Below the pieces are notes generated by a model. That model ran no database searches, was not told where the DNA came from, and saw only the letters and a program-made list of their open reading frames with translations. The position numbers and the translations under genes were made by a program. This document shows positions 2,344-61,748 of a DNA stretch of 64,000 nt, piece by piece. The DNA is from Phycisphaerales bacterium (GTDB taxonomy: Bacteria; Planctomycetota; Phycisphaerae; Sedimentisphaerales; Anaerobacaceae), in assembly GCA_003141315.1 (NCBI GenBank), contig PLLP01000023.1, positions 129,111-193,110 on the forward strand, in the 5' to 3' direction. Within the stretch, counting starts at the first letter, position 1; the number at the start of each line of letters is the position of its first letter.

Positions 2344-3825
2344 ATGATTTCAAAACGCCAATCACTTTGTGTTTGTGTGATGATTTTTGCATCTAATATG
2401 GCCTGTCTTGCACAACCTGAAGCAGCAGGTAAAATATATAAAGATGTGAATAATATTTCATTCCGTGGAAGCAGTGTCTCCTGGGGCATGAAAATAACAA
2501 GCTCTAATATTTCAGATGGTGCATTTTTGGTGGAAACAACCGGTGCAAGATTTGAGTATGCTTCGGGAATTCTGAAAGTATATCAGGGACTCAGCGGCAC
2601 AAAACGATTGCTGTCTACAATAGCTTTTGACCCGAATATCCTTTTTGAGCGGATAGTTGACACCGATGACCATGTCCTTTTATGGTCGGAGAAATTAAAC
2701 ATCGGGGTGTACGGCGATTCGACCTGCATCATTGCGCCGCGAACAGAACTGATAATGTCGTGCAAGGGTAATTTCAAGCCGGATTTCGAGAACCGCTATA
2801 ATGGTGAACTTCTGCTCATTGACAGCCTCGGCGGTATGGAAATCTATCCGCAGCGATATGAGGCGGGTTATGAAATTACTAATATTGAACTCGGTAAAAA
2901 AGATTGGCTCGCAAATTACCGCCTTAAGGCAAATGAGCGTGTGATGTTAGCGGCTTTTCCGGGGAAACCTTTCGACTGGGATGCTTCGTTTAAGAGCAAC
3001 GTGATAATGATGTATGGAAGCATGGGATACGGGAAAGATAATGTATACGGAGAAATGCCGCCCGAATCAGCTATTGCCCAGTGGTCCAGGAACTTACATA
3101 TAATTTATTTGTCTTACCAGGGTCTTTACAAAAACTATACCACACGGAAGTATCCATATCCAGGCGGCCCTTATACTGTGGAAAATGAAGCCGAGTTCAG
3201 GCGATTTGTCAAAACGGCACATTCTTATAACCTCAAGGTTAGCCCCTACACATCCCTGTATTACCATCAGCAGATAAAACCGGACGTGGAAGATTATTTT
3301 CAACAGGTGAAAGCTCTAAAGACAAAATTTGACATCGATGGAGTTTTCGTCGATGGATTGCTTACTGATGTTGAGGGGCATAAAATGGATGACAAGTGCG
3401 GCAAGTGGGAAATGATACGGAGATTGCGGCAGCTGTTCGGCAACGGCTCAATTGTATATCATAGCTCAAACAAAGATATTCCTTTTGACATTGTGCCAAA
3501 TGTCGATGTGTACACAACCATAACATTAACCGGTGAGAATGTTCCTTTTCAGTCAGTTGACGACGCCTATGTAAAATATGCTGTTCGTAAATACGGAATC
3601 TCCAACACCGTTGGGATGTGGATTGTAGGAAAGCATCCCGATACCATAAATTACAAATCGATTGTGGATACTGAAATATCCATGAACTGCAGAAAGATGT
3701 GGGGAAGCTATACCCCAATTGACAAAGCCCCTAACAACAATAAGTATGAATGGGGCACCAAGATTGAAGGAGGCTATTTGTATTATCTCCAGAAGCTGGA
3801 GATTTTGAGAAAACAGCAACACTAA
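2344..3825 (+). CDS. Secreted glycoside hydrolase-like protein (beta-sandwich plus TIM-barrel-like)
   Basis: The N-terminus (residues 1-24, ending ACLAQ) is a signal peptide, so the protein is exported. Residues about 25-215 look like a beta-sandwich. The rest resembles a (beta/alpha)8 barrel of the melibiase/amylase superfamily: YPGGPYTVENEAEF, then VSPYTSLYYH, then FDIDGVFVDGLL, where an aspartate ends a beta-strand as catalytic acids do in such barrels. I cannot name the GH family. The stop codon overlaps the next ATG (TAATG), so it is translationally coupled to the flippase gene. It may trim or process the polysaccharide made by the locus. The family and the substrate are inference. Confidence 0.5.
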   Translation: MISKRQSLCVCVMIFASNMACLAQPEAAGKIYKDVNNISFRGSSVSWGMKITSSNISDGAFLVETTGARFEYASGILKVYQGLSGTKRLLSTIAFDPNILFERIVDTDDHVLLWSEKLNIGVYGDSTCIIAPRTELIMSCKGNFKPDFENRYNGELLLIDSLGGMEIYPQRYEAGYEITNIELGKKDWLANYRLKANERVMLAAFPGKPFDWDASFKSNVIMMYGSMGYGKDNVYGEMPPESAIAQWSRNLHIIYLSYQGLYKNYTTRKYPYPGGPYTVENEAEFRRFVKTAHSYNLKVSPYTSLYYHQQIKPDVEDYFQQVKALKTKFDIDGVFVDGLLTDVEGHKMDDKCGKWEMIRRLRQLFGNGSIVYHSSNKDIPFDIVPNVDVYTTITLTGENVPFQSVDDAYVKYAVRKYGISNTVGMWIVGKHPDTINYKSIVDTEISMNCRKMWGSYTPIDKAPNNNKYEWGTKIEGGYLYYLQKLEILRKQQH

Positions 3826-5105
3826 TGGCATTACGCTCTTTAAAATATAACTTTATATGGGCACTTGTCGGAAACGCAATTTCAGCCTTTTGCATGTGGC
3901 TCCTGCTGGTTGTGCTTATCAAACTTGGAACCGTGGAGACGGTGGGAATATTTGCTTTGGCACAGGCAATCGCGTTGCCTATTAGCTTGTTGCTTAGTCT
4001 GAAACTTCAGGTTGTGCAGGTAACGGACGCTAAAAACGATTATGCGTTCGGCCATTATTATTCCCTTCGGATAATAACATCCTTTCTAACGGTGATCGTG
4101 GCAGGGACAGTCGGATTTATATTCTATCCCCTGGAAACCGCCTTGATTATTTTGCTGTTGGGCATCAATTATGCAATAGTGTCTGTTCGTGAAGTATTCC
4201 TCGGATTTATGCAAAAATCCGAACGAATGGACAAAATGTCCATATCTGTCGCCATGCAGGGTGTTTTGTCTCTTATTATTTTCGGTATCGTTTTCTGGGT
4301 AACTAATAGCCTGTGGCTGTCTGTTATAGGTTTAAGCATTGCCCGGCTGATTGTCGTGTTTATATACGATTTTCCAGTTGTCAGAAGATTGTCTGGTTCA
4401 ATAGGAGCAAGTTCGGTCAATTGGATGAGGCCAATATGGTCCAAGGATAAGCTTTTGAGTCTGGTGAAATTAACAATACCTCTTGGGCTTGTCGCATGGC
4501 TTGCGCAATTATTCACAAGCATACCGCGATTGGTGCTGGAAAAATACGGCGGCATTAAAGAAGTCGGATATTTTGCGGCTATTTCGTCTCTGCTTGTTGT
4601 TGGTACAATGGTGGTAGCTGCAATGAGCCAGGCAGTCAGCCCACGGCTGGCGGTTTATTATATTCAAAACAGGATTGCTTATAAATGGCTTCTGGGAAAG
4701 TTTTTGGCCGTCGGGCTTTTGCTGGGAATATTAGGAGTACTGATAAGCACATTTTTCGGCAAAATCGTCCTTACGTTTATGTTCAAGGCCGATTATGCCC
4801 AGCACAACAAAATGTTTATACTCCTTACATTCGCCGGTCTTGTGCTTTTTCTTTTCTCCGGCATGAACGTCGCTCTTACAGCAAGCAGAAAATTAGCCAT
4901 TCAATTGCCTCTGTATGCGCTTTCAACACTGGCATGCCTTGTTTTCTCTTTTCTTTTGATTCCAAAGTATGGAATGATAGGGGCAACGTGGGCGCTTATT
5001 ATATGCTATTTTATCGGGACTTTGGGATGCGCTATCTTTGTGGTTAAGGCATATTACGAAAAGGATGGCCTGCCCAAGTCAGCGGAGGAACTCAGCAATG
5101 TTTGA
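3825..5105 (+). CDS. Wzx-type polysaccharide flippase (MOP superfamily)
   Basis: This 426-residue protein has about 12 hydrophobic segments spread over its length and no large soluble domain, which is the layout of Wzx/RfbX flippases of the MOP exporter superfamily. Such proteins move undecaprenyl-diphosphate-linked repeat units across the cytoplasmic membrane. The first segment (about residues 12-33) begins right after a short basic N-terminus (ALRSLKYNFIW), as is common in Wzx. It starts at an ATG overlapping the previous stop codon. A Wzy-like polymerase lies 1.4 kb downstream, which supports a Wzx/Wzy pathway. Flippase sequences diverge strongly, so the substrate cannot be read from sequence. 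Confidence 0.85.
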   Translation: MALRSLKYNFIWALVGNAISAFCMWLLLVVLIKLGTVETVGIFALAQAIALPISLLLSLKLQVVQVTDAKNDYAFGHYYSLRIITSFLTVIVAGTVGFIFYPLETALIILLLGINYAIVSVREVFLGFMQKSERMDKMSISVAMQGVLSLIIFGIVFWVTNSLWLSVIGLSIARLIVVFIYDFPVVRRLSGSIGASSVNWMRPIWSKDKLLSLVKLTIPLGLVAWLAQLFTSIPRLVLEKYGGIKEVGYFAAISSLLVVGTMVVAAMSQAVSPRLAVYYIQNRIAYKWLLGKFLAVGLLLGILGVLISTFFGKIVLTFMFKADYAQHNKMFILLTFAGLVLFLFSGMNVALTASRKLAIQLPLYALSTLACLVFSFLLIPKYGMIGATWALIICYFIGTLGCAIFVVKAYYEKDGLPKSAEELSNV

Positions 5106-48095: not shown

Positions 48096-48131
48096 CTAAA
48101 TATCGAAGATCCGCCGCAGGCGGACTGAAAA
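48096..48131 (+). repeat. Copy 1 of a palindromic dispersed repeat
   Basis: It reads CTAAATATCGAAGATCCGCC, then GCA and GGCGGACTGAAAACTA. The CCGCC/GGCGG arms form a short hairpin. It is adjacent to the ppdK stop codon. Three further copies lie at 51.0-52.1 kb. Confidence 0.75.
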
Positions 48132-51018: not shown

Positions 51019-51073
51019 CTAAATATCGAAGATCCGCTCCGCCGTAGGCGGATGTGGCGGACTGACAACTAAT
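51019..51073 (+). repeat. Copy 2 of the palindromic dispersed repeat (long form)
   Basis: It shares CTAAATATCGAAGATCCGC with copy 1 and ends GGCGGACTGACAACTAAT. Between them is an extra TCCGCC-GTA-GGCGGA hairpin, giving a nested palindrome. Confidence 0.75.
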
Positions 51074-51197: not shown

Positions 51198-51220
51198 TGA
51201 CACGGATTTTTGAGGAAACT
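51198..51220. repeat. Direct repeat copy A (23 bases)
   Basis: The 23-base string starting TGACACGGATTTTTGAGG is repeated exactly at 51322-51344. It lies upstream of the small membrane-protein gene. Confidence 0.8.
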
Positions 51221-51321
51221 GGCGGAAAAGAAAAATAAGCCACAGAGAACACAGAGGGCACAGAGAAATTTAGACACGGATTAACACCGATTCCGCCTAC
51301 GTTGTAACTACGGCGGACAAG

Positions 51322-51344
51322 TGACACGGATTTTTGAGGAAACT
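51322..51344. repeat. Direct repeat copy B (23 bases)
   Basis: It is the exact second copy of 51198-51220 and is followed, like copy A, by an A/G-rich stretch (GAGAAGAAATAA). It ends 16 bases before the start codon of the next gene and includes its upstream region. Confidence 0.8.
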
Positions 51345-51359
51345 AATGGAGAAGAAATA

Positions 51360-51873: not shown

Positions 51874-51916
51874 AGTTGTTAGTCCGCCAAAAGGACGGCG
51901 GATCTTCGATATCTAG
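51874..51916 (-). repeat. Copy 3 of the palindromic dispersed repeat (inverted)
   Basis: Read on the minus strand it is CTAGATATCGAAGATCCGCC-GTCCTTTT-GGCGGACTAACAACTA, the same end sequences as copies 1 and 2 with a different loop. Confidence 0.7.
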
Positions 51917-52010
51917 TCAGCGGAAGAGAATATAAATATCCTGTTAATCCGGTTATCCTGTCAATTTTTTCTTTTAGCGCCCTCTATGGCAGATTTGGGC
52001 ATAAGGCAAT

Positions 52011-52056
52011 TTAGTCCGCCACATCCGCCACTGGCGGAGCGGATCTGCGATATTTA
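52011..52056 (-). repeat. Copy 4 of the palindromic dispersed repeat (inverted, long form)
   Basis: Read on the minus strand it is TTAAATATCGCAGATCCGCTCC-GCCAGTGGC-GGATGTGGCGGACTAA. It has the nested extra palindrome seen in copy 2, with one substitution in the GAAGATC part. Confidence 0.7.
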
Positions 52057-52163: not shown

Positions 52164-52238
52164 GGTGAGTGTAGCTCAGTTGGATAGAGCATCGGATTGT
52201 GGTTCCGAGGGTCGCGGGTTCGAATCCCGTCTCTCACC
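52164..52238 (+). tRNA. tRNA-His(GTG)
   Basis: The anticodon stem TCGGA/TCCGA encloses loop TTGTGGT (anticodon GTG). D-arm TAGCTCAGTTGGATAGAGC and T-arm GCGGG-TTCGAAT-CCCGT are normal. The acceptor GTGAGTG pairs with CTCTCAC with one T-T mismatch at the sixth pair. An extra G before the first pair and a C at position 73 fit the histidine identity rule (G-1:C73). A T-run follows after two bases. Confidence 0.95.
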
Positions 52239-52309
52239 CTTTTTCGTCACCCGTGACTCGTCTCTCGTCGATAGTCGCTCGTATTGACTACCCTAATCTC
52301 GGCACTATT

Positions 52310-52347
52310 TTATTGATTTTCTGCGGGAGGGGCCGGCTGGTCCGACT
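52310..52347. repeat. 38-base direct repeat, copy A (membrane-protein 3' end)
   Basis: The string from 52310 to 52347 (starting TTATTGATTTTCTGCGGGAG) is identical to 55183-55220. It ends exactly at the last base of both stop codons and encodes the same C-terminal peptide. The bases on either side differ. It is 71 bases from tRNA-His. Confidence 0.95.
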
Positions 52348-54019
52348 TTCCGCTGGGACGCTTGAAGAGACTGGCAACGGCTCCCGCTGCGAGCAACACA
52401 AAACCAAGTATTACCAGACGCCAATAGGCAAGATACTTTGCCATCACATATAACTTGACTAAAAACGGTGCAAACAGAATTGCCATAACCAGGATGTTTT
52501 TTCTGATAAACCACAGTAGACCAATAAGACATCCAGTTGCAGGCAACACGATTATGTAGAGCCAATGAATGTATTCGGGCAGCAAGTCATAAATAAAAAC
52601 AGCCAGACAAAGAGCCCCGACAACCTGAAAGGCTTTATGCAATTTTTGACCAAACAGGAGGTAAAAGATAATGCAGCCAATGCCGAAAACACCGGCAATA
52701 GTTCCAGGCTCTGTCAGGTTCAAGTTCTTTACAAAAACTGAAAAAGAATCCGACTGGGCCAATCCAATACATAGAACGGCAATTCCTGCAAGATAGCTGA
52801 ACTGGTTGCGAATGATAATTCCATAGATGATAAGTGAAACCACAAGCGTAAAAAAGCAAGCGTGAATATTCAAATCGTGCGGATGCTGCGGGGAAAATCC
52901 GACTGTAAGAATTATACCAAGCCCATATAAAAACACCGACACAAACAGTCGATACCACCGGTGATAAATGGCAACGGCAGCTATTGCCGCTCCGGATAGC
53001 GCAAAAAACACAGGTGGATAGCACACCAGCCCAAAGCCAAGCCGGTCGGATGCGACGACCGTTTTTTCACTTATAGCCAACAACATAGCGGCAAGCGGCA
53101 CAAATGATATTAAAATATCTATATATTTGAACCGCCTGCCAAGATGACGAAATATCTCAAGTGCTATTAGAGTAACCAGGGCAATCAAAGGAACGTAATC
53201 CCCAAATACGCGTTCAAGTGCAAACATATACGACATAGAATATTGATGCACACCTGACGCGACAAGCAAGATTGTCGAAAAAACATACACCATAACAGGA
53301 CTCTGGAGAAAGACCCGGTTAGTTTGTCCTGCCTGCTGCTCTTTTTCTCTCATTGCCTCTATGAGCACAATACTGCCGGCAATCAGCATAATCACCCAAA
53401 TAAACATCCATAGTTCTCTGTGGGCCAAATCCTGTGATGGACTGGTTGACACCAATCGAGCCATAATGGCAGGCCCCAAGTAGTTACATGCCATAAGAAC
53501 CATCAGACCCAATATGGAAAGTGTTCTAAAGGGGATGCGGATAAAGCGCTTCATGGAATAGAATTTCCCGAAGGCTATCGCAATTCCAAAAAGCCCCACA
53601 AACAGACTGGCAGTAATACCTTTATCTGCTGCCGACCCCAGCGCAATACTGGTTCCGACAAGAAATAAAGCTATCAAAACCACAAGAGACACTGCATCAT
53701 CAACTATCTTCTTCGACACTATCAGAATCAGAACGCCAAGCAGCGATATTTCATATATGTGAAGTGTAAAAATACAAATCAGTGCATCTTTAATAGTATC
53801 GCTGCCTGACAGTATCGGCCCCATAACCTTGACAATACCGCAAGCAACAAAGACAGCGCTTAAACAATACAGCAAACTTCCACCAGTCAGATGGTAAAAC
53901 TCTTTCCATGAATTCGGGTCAAAGATGTCACCTTTGGCTGCCGTTTTGGTCCTTTGCGGCTGCAGCAGTTCAAGTGGAGACCCACTCCCGTTTTCGTTTT
54001 TCGTATCAGGAAAATCCAT
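52310..54019 (-). CDS. Polytopic membrane protein of unknown function, C-terminus shared with rplI
   Basis: This 569-residue protein has about 14-16 hydrophobic segments and a 40-residue soluble N-terminal tail (MDFPDTKNENGSGSPLE). There is no recognisable catalytic motif; DUF2339-like proteins have a similar topology. Its last 11 residues (SDQPAPPAENQ) are identical to those of bL9 and are encoded by a perfect 38-base repeat, so its 3' end was replaced or formed by duplication of the rplI end. It is preceded by a pseudopilin-like gene on the same strand with a 73-base gap. Confidence 0.6.
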   Translation of the reverse strand: MDFPDTKNENGSGSPLELLQPQRTKTAAKGDIFDPNSWKEFYHLTGGSLLYCLSAVFVACGIVKVMGPILSGSDTIKDALICIFTLHIYEISLLGVLILIVSKKIVDDAVSLVVLIALFLVGTSIALGSAADKGITASLFVGLFGIAIAFGKFYSMKRFIRIPFRTLSILGLMVLMACNYLGPAIMARLVSTSPSQDLAHRELWMFIWVIMLIAGSIVLIEAMREKEQQAGQTNRVFLQSPVMVYVFSTILLVASGVHQYSMSYMFALERVFGDYVPLIALVTLIALEIFRHLGRRFKYIDILISFVPLAAMLLAISEKTVVASDRLGFGLVCYPPVFFALSGAAIAAVAIYHRWYRLFVSVFLYGLGIILTVGFSPQHPHDLNIHACFFTLVVSLIIYGIIIRNQFSYLAGIAVLCIGLAQSDSFSVFVKNLNLTEPGTIAGVFGIGCIIFYLLFGQKLHKAFQVVGALCLAVFIYDLLPEYIHWLYIIVLPATGCLIGLLWFIRKNILVMAILFAPFLVKLYVMAKYLAYWRLVILGFVLLAAGAVASLFKRPSGKSDQPAPPAENQ

Positions 54020-54092
54020 AACTATACCTCCATCTTCCTTTATTTTTATATTTCAGCCAGTCTGAGTTTATTATTATCCGCTAACACGCCCG

Positions 54093-54974
54093 TCATTGAG
54101 CATCCCACCCACCCGGAGGGGGCAACTTGCTGGCCCACGCCCAGGACAGATTGCCGGCAGGACCGAGGCGGCTTTTGCCGCCGTGCATAGTCTTTCTCAG
54201 CTGGTCTTCTACACTAATAAGTTCTACATGACCATCGACGAATAACACATTGCTATATCCGCGATTAAGATCTCCCCCTGGGGCCCCATGATATGTAGCG
54301 AAGCAGTTGATAGCATTCGGAGTAGGGCTTATCAGCAGAACCGTATCGTCGAGGGCTTTGGTACTCAAAGGGGCGGACAACCATGTGGCAGGTAAGGCAG
54401 AATGGTCTGGCCTGAGGCTCCAGGAATTCTCTTCTGCAAAGAAAAATACCCTGCCCGGGTCTCTAACTTCAGATTGCTTCCTTACTCCGCCATTTTCTTC
54501 AGCGCCAAGGTATCCATTCATAGTGTAATTGTATTGTGGTTCAATATCTATGTTGCGTTTATGTCCCGGGTTTTCACAAACTCTGGATTCAGTGAGGTCG
54601 CGAAAAATCGGACAAGGACGAATACTCCTCTTGTCAAAGTAAGTCCACATCTTCCCCCTGTATTCCGGAGATTTATTCATTATTTCGCCGGTTTGATTCA
54701 TGGCCATATCGTGCCATCGGCAGCCTATTGGATGAGACTCGGTATTTGATTTCGTTGTATAGAGCCATTCACCTGCTTTGGGGAAAAACTCGTCATTATC
54801 ATTTAAGTATTGTTGTCCTAAGATGCCGTACGTCTGCAAGTAGGACCCACAGATTGCCCCTGAAGACATTGTTCGTACCCTACTCAAGGCCGGCATTAGC
54901 AAGGCAAACAACAGGAAAATGACAATAATCACGCACAATAATTCCCAAATAGTAAATGCCCGCTTGGTATTCAT
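54093..54974 (-). CDS. DUF1559-like type II pseudopilin-like protein
   Basis: Coordinates are given 5' to 3' on the minus strand. The ATG at 54974 gives a prepilin-like leader MNTKRAFTIWELLCVI, with a cleavage-like site before a hydrophobic helix. An in-frame ATG at 54992 is also possible. The remainder is about 270 residues with the H-x-G-type end SNVLFVDGHVELIS that marks DUF1559 proteins, a family strongly expanded in Planctomycetes. The helix motif is TIWELL rather than the usual TLIELL. The protein probably enters a type II/IV pilus-like membrane assembly. Function is unknown. Confidence 0.8.
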   Translation of the reverse strand: MNTKRAFTIWELLCVIIVIFLLFALLMPALSRVRTMSSGAICGSYLQTYGILGQQYLNDNDEFFPKAGEWLYTTKSNTESHPIGCRWHDMAMNQTGEIMNKSPEYRGKMWTYFDKRSIRPCPIFRDLTESRVCENPGHKRNIDIEPQYNYTMNGYLGAEENGGVRKQSEVRDPGRVFFFAEENSWSLRPDHSALPATWLSAPLSTKALDDTVLLISPTPNAINCFATYHGAPGGDLNRGYSNVLFVDGHVELISVEDQLRKTMHGGKSRLGPAGNLSWAWASKLPPPGGWDAQ

Positions 54975-55182
54975 GGTTATGTTATTATTCATAACTTCGA
55001 TAAGGGTGCTATGAGTATCTGAAATTTCTATTCTCTGGCACTATACTCAAAAATATATCGAATCCTGATACCAATCAAACTTTATTCAATGGTGTCTTCT
55101 GACGCATAAAGTATTTTCTCAATGCGTCCTTGTTCCTATCTTCTCTCGCAATTTATCCGGGCTTCATTTCAGCCTTTTGTTA

Positions 55183-55220
55183 TTATTGATTTTCTGCGGG
55201 AGGGGCCGGCTGGTCCGACT
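55183..55220. repeat. 38-base direct repeat, copy B (rplI 3' end)
   Basis: This is the second copy, in the same orientation, 2,873 bases from copy A. Together they bound a segment containing the membrane protein and DUF1559-like genes. Confidence 0.95.
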
Positions 55221-60776: not shown

Positions 60777-61748
60777 TTACGGACGGGGATGGTATTTTTT
60801 GTGAATCATTCTCAATCTTTCGCCGTCAACGTGGGTATAAATCTGCGTTGTGGCGATATCGACGTGGCCAAGCATCTCCTGGATGCTTCGCAAGTCCGCC
60901 CCCCCTGCCAAAAGATGCGTTGCGAAACAGTGGCGAAGCGTATGCGGGGACAGCTTTGCGGAAAGGCCTGCCCGTGCGGCATATTTTTTGACTAATCGCC
61001 AGATTTCAATTCGGCTGAGCCCCCTGCCGGTGCGCGAGAGGAAGAGAAACTGGCTGCTGCCAATCTTTGTGGTTTCCCTGTCCGGCTGGGACCGGCCGGC
61101 GGCGAGTTTTGGACGTAAATTATATAAATATTCCGTAATCGCGGCGATGGCGGTTTTACCCAGCGGGATAACCCTTTCACGGTTGCCCTTGCCGATGCAC
61201 CGCAGGTAGCCGATATCGCGGTTTAAATCGGAGATTTTCAGATTCGCGATTTCGTTCGCACGCAGGCCCGCCGCGTAAAGCAGTTCGAGCATGGCTTTAT
61301 CCCGCAGGAAGAAAGGCTCTTTCGGGTCAGGGGTATTGAGCAGTTCCGCGACCTTATCCTTGCTGCAGACCATTGGCAGTTTTTGCCAGAGTTTCGGGCC
61401 GTCGAGCGCCGACGAAAAATCGTCTTTGATAAATTTATTGAGGGCGGCAAAACGGAGGAACATTCGAATCGCCACAAGGCTGCGTTTGACGGTAGCCTCA
61501 TCTTTACCATCTTTTGACAGAGAACGCTGGTAGGTCTGAATCAGGAGCGGCTTTAACTGCTCCAGGTTGCTGATATTGCAGGAGGAGCAGAATTCGAGAA
61601 ACCCTTTCAGGTCTCTGCCATAACCGAGGATGGAATTTTCGGAGAGCCCCGCCTCGATGTGAAGGTAGTTGAGAAAAGAGAGAACGATTTTGCCGAGAGG
61701 CAACTCCGCGATTTTTTCTTTTACAGATTGTGTCTGAAAGAGGGACAA
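60777..61748 (-). CDS. Tyrosine recombinase XerC/XerD-like
   Basis: This is a Xer-type site-specific recombinase of 323 residues, with an N-terminal SAM-like core-binding domain (FLNYLHIEAGLSENSILGYGRDLKGF) and a C-terminal catalytic domain. The active-site set is present: R in YAAGLRANEIANL, K in the IGKGNRERVIP turn, H-x-x-R in SPHTLRHCFATHLLAGGADL, the histidine of LGH and the tyrosine in TQIYTHVDGER. It resolves chromosome dimers at dif, as XerC/D. The start is a TTG; no ATG exists upstream in the frame. Xer proteins can also serve mobile elements. Confidence 0.88.
   Translation of the reverse strand: MSLFQTQSVKEKIAELPLGKIVLSFLNYLHIEAGLSENSILGYGRDLKGFLEFCSSCNISNLEQLKPLLIQTYQRSLSKDGKDEATVKRSLVAIRMFLRFAALNKFIKDDFSSALDGPKLWQKLPMVCSKDKVAELLNTPDPKEPFFLRDKAMLELLYAAGLRANEIANLKISDLNRDIGYLRCIGKGNRERVIPLGKTAIAAITEYLYNLRPKLAAGRSQPDRETTKIGSSQFLFLSRTGRGLSRIEIWRLVKKYAARAGLSAKLSPHTLRHCFATHLLAGGADLRSIQEMLGHVDIATTQIYTHVDGERLRMIHKKYHPRP

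Follow-up and report, generated by a model that had tools for sequence, protein, structure and literature searches.

Short-junction tandem duplications of 1.2 and 1.9 kb arise spontaneously at sigH of S. aureus and fuse neighbouring genes in frame (PMC3486894). These duplications were isolated at frequencies up to 1e-5 and result in chimeric genes (PMC3486894). The locus described here lies within a 64-kb window, the whole stretch of DNA that was analysed, and consists of a two-gene segment bounded by two copies of a 38-bp sequence, one at the 3′ end of rplI and one at the 3′ end of a gene encoding a polytopic membrane protein. The membrane protein most likely received the tail of ribosomal protein L9 through a real rearrangement that left this small scar.

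Genomic context of the rplI locus

The minus strand of this region encodes, in order, rpsF, ssb, rpsR and rplI, followed by a spacer, a pilin-like gene and the membrane-protein gene (Table 1). The last two genes, in that order, are referred to as the two-gene unit. The tail of the rplI product past about residue 147 is not conserved. The membrane protein did not match any family in scans against Pfam, NCBIfam or PHROG. Its structural model is all-helical and of fair confidence (mean pLDDT 77.7), with the last 20 residues below a pLDDT of 50 and predicted to be disordered, and a PDB fold search with this protein provided no significant match. The membrane-protein alignment (A1) is composed of 14 members and contains 35 invariant columns. 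The pilin-like protein exhibits weak matches, below cut-off, to TIGR04294 and GspG/ComGC, and its N-terminus resembles the N-termini of PilA and geopilin in the PDB. The spacer between rplI and the pilin-like gene has no matching place elsewhere in the genome, and the spacer on the tRNA side likewise proved not to be a repeat.

Table 1. Coordinates of the features between tRNA-His and rplI, numbered from the first letter of the window
Feature	Position	Strand	Remarks
tRNA-His (GTG)	52165..52239	+	Identified by ARAGORN; orientation opposite to the membrane-protein gene
Spacer, tRNA-His to membrane-protein stop	52240..52309		70 bp; junction side not adjoining rplI in relatives
Repeat copy, membrane-protein gene 3′ end	52310..52347	-	Exact repeat; tail absent from homologues; probable acquired copy
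Polytopic membrane protein, 569 aa	52310..54019	-	Core conserved to about residue 554; homology runs out at about residues 554-562
Pilin-like / H-X9-DG type protein, type IV, 299 aa	54093..54992	-	Prepilin N-terminus
Spacer, rplI stop to pilin-like gene	54993..55182	-	190 bp, 36% G+C
Repeat copy, rplI 3′ end	55183..55220	-	Exact repeat; G+C 22/38; probable donor
rplI, ribosomal protein L9, 167 aa	55183..55686	-	TIGR00158 (E 2.5e-34); Pfam L9 N and C domains

The 38-bp direct repeat

Exact-repeat comparison of the window identified a perfect 38-bp direct repeat, TTATTGATTTTCTGCGGGAGGGGCCGGCTGGTCCGACT, whose two copies are identical. This is the longest exact repeat of the 64-kb window, the runner-up being 23 bp, and we estimate the chance of a 38-bp exact repeat in 64 kb at about 1e-14. 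Read on the minus strand, both copies are AG TCG GAC CAG CCG GCC CCT CCC GCA GAA AAT CAA TAA, which is two bases of the preceding codon followed by codons translated in the same frame in both genes as SDQPAPPAENQ and a stop. The identity ends exactly at the two stop codons, where the adjoining base is T (52309) beside one copy and A (55182) beside the other. The copy in the membrane-protein gene is in frame there with its own stop, and it is a direct copy of a nearby stretch, 2.87 kb from its counterpart. The sequence-only reading had described a perfect repeat that ends at both stops and gives rplI and the membrane protein a shared 11-residue tail; the repeat is as described and far beyond chance, and the tail is borne out by translation.

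The 38-mer is found twice in the 2.35-Mb genome with up to 3 mismatches allowed, and with only these two copies the possibility of an interspersed repeat was dropped. An RNA element common to both 3′ ends was also dropped, as there is no stable fold (z -0.57). Contigs in IMG/VR contain no match to the 38-mer, the pilin-like protein or the membrane protein. Another direct repeat of the region, 36 bp in length and 89% identical (TGACACGGATTTTTGAGGAAACT...), is located at 51198-51233 and 51322-51357; it is non-coding and precedes a 165-aa orphan ORF.

Distribution of the two-gene unit

The relatives compared were class and family genomes outside the genus of this bacterium. The membrane-protein family is patchy among them, with members in 21 of 397 class genomes and 4 of 89 family genomes (counts that include the present genome). 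Four relatives (G037, G025, G274 and G318) encode the intact unit with its gene order kept, at about 45-57% identity, though the unit sits at other loci, beside unrelated genes, and no repeats flank it in any of the four. The closest homologue of the pilin-like protein (66% identity) is encoded in G011 on a contig that ends inside the gene; this gene adjoins an M48 peptidase gene and is not at rplI. None of the relatives examined carries the two-gene segment at the rplI position. This absence and the patchy distribution of the family mark the segment as an addition, specific to this lineage, where rplI ends. The earlier claim of an insertion thus holds as far as the lineage-specific addition of two genes at this place is concerned, but is not supported as regards site-specific integration as the route.

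The unit is a sporadically inherited or transferred pair with no recognisable mobility genes. The unnamed membrane-protein family, often encoded beside a pilin-like gene, is sporadic in the class, and the pair in this order, unnamed and patchily inherited, may merit description as a family. The SDQPAPPAENQ tail is absent from every membrane-protein homologue examined; the core common to these proteins stops just before the tail and is followed by unrelated tails.

Synteny and the rplI breakpoint

The gene that comes after rplI on the same strand is dnaB in 24 of 29 relatives. The dnaB gene of the present genome is encoded on a separate contig (C18) between der and bamA, which places a breakpoint exactly downstream of rplI, given that most relatives keep the two genes together. 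The association of ppdK with tRNA-His is a recurrent, old and separate block; in 6 of 15 relatives tRNA-His comes after ppdK and not after rplI. The placement of rplI beside tRNA-His is new in this lineage, and precisely at this lineage-specific breakpoint lies the segment with its pair of repeats. The empty site predicted from the sequence, with rplI leading directly to tRNA-His, was seen in no relative compared, all of which are outside the genus; the usual arrangement in these genomes is the one with dnaB. A search near dnaB on its contig for a remnant of the old rplI-dnaB junction gave nothing above shuffles, and a scan of the contigs for rplI found one distant locus only.

An interspersed repeat, TAAATATCGAAGATCCGCC...GGCGGACT, flanks ppdK at 48097-48125, 51020-51063, 51883-51935 and 52013-52056, and its palindromic core CCGCCNNNGGCGG has 8 near-matches in the window where 1.7 are expected. 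The ppdK gene is oriented away from tRNA-His here and towards it in the relatives, which makes an inversion between inverted copies of this repeat plausible.

A synteny break of this kind could also be caused by a misjoin, since dnaB is on another contig and the genome is a draft of 25 contigs. We regard an assembly error or chimeric join as very unlikely, however: 38 bp is far below read length, so no confusion is expected at the usual k-mer sizes, and two copies of the repeat must be present however the contigs are joined. Neither gene is disrupted or out of frame, and a single contig of 219 kb carries both copies.

The main rival explanation is an insertion with a duplication of the target-site type. 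The two-gene fragment would have entered a staggered break where rplI ends, and filling in of a 38-base overhang would have duplicated the rplI end, a course of events that we consider rather unlikely. It is similarly doubtful that the truncated membrane-protein gene came to run in frame into the downstream copy in this way. Such an insertion would give the same final structure from one event, and the unit is patchy and has a lower G+C content than rplI (44% vs 56%), as expected of acquired DNA. Against it, there is no transposase, the segment ends have no terminal inverted repeats, no Ku was found, and 38 bp is long for the target duplication of a transposon. The downstream side of the segment is also not the ancestral neighbour of rplI, so an insertion needs a second rearrangement.

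Probable direction of copying

The G+C content of the repeat is 22/38, a richness reached by 44% of the 38-bp windows in rplI and by 6% of those in the membrane-protein gene. This favours rplI as the donor of the 38 bp by roughly 7 to 1, an indication and not proof, with the membrane-protein gene as the probable recipient. The two tails lie outside the conserved domains of their proteins. The putative donor is intact, as rplI keeps its L9 domains, and the putative recipient is truncated at the join, where the membrane-protein homology ends. The unrelated tails of the homologues and the predicted disorder of this tail suggest that its replacement in the membrane protein would be tolerable.

Copying in the reverse direction, from a tail native to the membrane protein onto rplI, could draw on the fact that homologue tails vary in length, up to about the size of this one, and that the homologue of G318 ends in KDLPDAKEPENV, which is loosely alike in composition. 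We judge it a very slim prospect, however, since the G+C content of the repeat fits rplI, the stretch of the rplI tail ahead of the repeat (LPAEQPQQ) runs on in the same style, and the tail sequence is common to no homologue.

Proposed site-specific integration at the end of rplI

The sequence-only reading proposed site-specific integration at the 3′ end of rplI. The repeats would then be attL and attR of a small element integrated by a tyrosine recombinase supplied in trans, and this we consider improbable. The identity that ends at the rplI stop, the intact state of rplI and the nearby tRNA gene, which lies beside the repeat as had been noticed, are consistent with such an event. A XerC/D-type recombinase is likewise encoded where it had been reported, about 5.6 kb from the repeat (60777-61748), and it is an equally improbable example of a candidate for the integration in trans, since its best matches are the housekeeping XerD/XerC models. 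Scans of both genes of the segment with Pfam, NCBIfam and PHROGs identified no integrase or recombinase, in agreement with what had been read from the sequence. The repeat has no inverted core, its best arms forming 5 of 7 pairs, which 271 of 500 shuffles equalled. The genome contains the 38-mer no more than twice; in relatives the unit lies away from rplI and is free of flanking repeats, and these genomes do not have the order rplI to tRNA-His. A search of the literature for rplI as an integration site found no papers. With no integrase, core, further copies or repeats around the unit elsewhere, site-specific integration was rejected as the best reading, and an ordinary rearrangement scar fits better than a mobile element that targets rplI.

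A narrower form of this proposal takes the repeats as the attL and attR sites of a minimal element without an integrase, which carries the pilin-like and membrane-protein genes as cargo, is moved in trans by a tyrosine recombinase and has a last gene that evolved to end inside the attachment core. We attach hardly any probability to it; if true, the same 38 bp would complete both a host gene and a passenger gene.

Proposed origin of the repeat

On a slight balance of probability, the repeat and the segment are a scar left by a non-homologous rearrangement of the chromosome that happened once, with the tail of rplI copied in. In such an event, the old rplI-dnaB adjacency would have been broken in this lineage, and the patchy two-gene unit would have ended up between rplI and the block of ppdK and tRNA-His. 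The membrane-protein gene may have lost its own variable tail and stop codon at the junction beyond the gene, and a copy of the terminal 38 bp of rplI, comprising 11 codons, the stop and 2 further bases, would then have been added to the broken 3′ end. Two routes of copying may be envisaged: template switching could have left the 38 bp as a short templated filler, or they could be what persists of a short-junction tandem duplication after deletion of its second copy. As the copy is in frame, it would have supplied the membrane protein with a stop codon and 11 residues of disordered tail, and the copying would have left rplI intact. The repeat, the absence of its tail from homologues, the broken synteny and the other loci of the unit are observed; which way the copying ran, and by what molecular route, is inferred. 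The exact end at the stop codon and the reading frame are coincidental under this scenario if the copy was not retained through selection for a stop codon. Tail duplication by gene conversion, which the sequence-only reading had held out as its alternative, comes close to the favoured scenario in its copying of the tail; the match lies in that part. No Ku was found in this bacterium, which argues against classical end-joining, and Ku-dependent joining was dropped on this ground.

The best sign that the duplication once extended further is found next to the downstream repeat, where 16 bases (52293-52308, CTAATCTC-GGCACTAT) match positions 55028-55044 (CTATTCTCTGGCACTAT) in the spacer between rplI and the pilin-like gene. 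The alignment covers 17 bases at 88% identity with one mismatch and one gap and is a weak match noted post hoc; its score is equalled at one other place only on both strands of the window. A genuine match would mean that more was duplicated at first and that about 140 bp of it was later lost. A longer, diverged duplication was dropped as a candidate, as the body side was no better than shuffles (168/300) and the stop side offered only this 17-base match, which is 138 bp off register.

The locus provides a single-case example of a rearrangement junction at which a gene can take up a new stop codon and C-terminal tail from a neighbour to which it is unrelated, in a bacterium with no Ku detected. 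It also calls for caution: a direct repeat at the 3′ end of a gene beside a tRNA is not enough on its own to identify an integration site.

Comparison with known systems

Elements with an attB at the 3′ end of a gene share with this locus a direct repeat that runs up to a stop codon and so re-forms the end of the gene, but here there is no integrase and no inverted core, and related units are located away from rplI. Insertions with target-site duplication also have direct repeats flanking a segment; this segment differs in lacking both a transposase and terminal inverted repeats, and 38 bp is unusually long.

A membrane-protein homologue in G390 and the gene adjacent to it also have identical C-terminal tails. 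At positions 3529-4299 of this locus (L071), an array of palindromic repeats, CCCCTTGATRAATCAAGGGG, extends into the homologue and a transposase gene at their 3′ ends and gives both the C-terminus LINQGNGTNPLMNQG. The transposase ORF (3722-4294) was assigned by eye to the Y1/REP-associated type. The tails there come from a palindromic REP/RAYT array (IS200-like transposase) that includes a Y1-type transposase gene, whereas the 38-bp repeat is non-palindromic, has two copies only and shows no significant fold. The G390 locus gives the membrane-protein family another instance of shared tails, unrelated to the first.

The short-junction duplications of S. aureus sigH (PMC3486894) differ from this locus in that here 38 bp of one end only remain, there is no second copy of the unit, and the seed homology is at most 2 bases (AG). 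They are like it in being spontaneous non-homologous events on a scale of 1-3 kb, in which parts of neighbouring genes are joined in frame and the donor copy stays intact. The present locus has the copy at a novel junction with an intact donor and a truncated recipient, as in scars of the short-junction or templated-insertion type, and the rplI-tail scar is an instance of this known kind.
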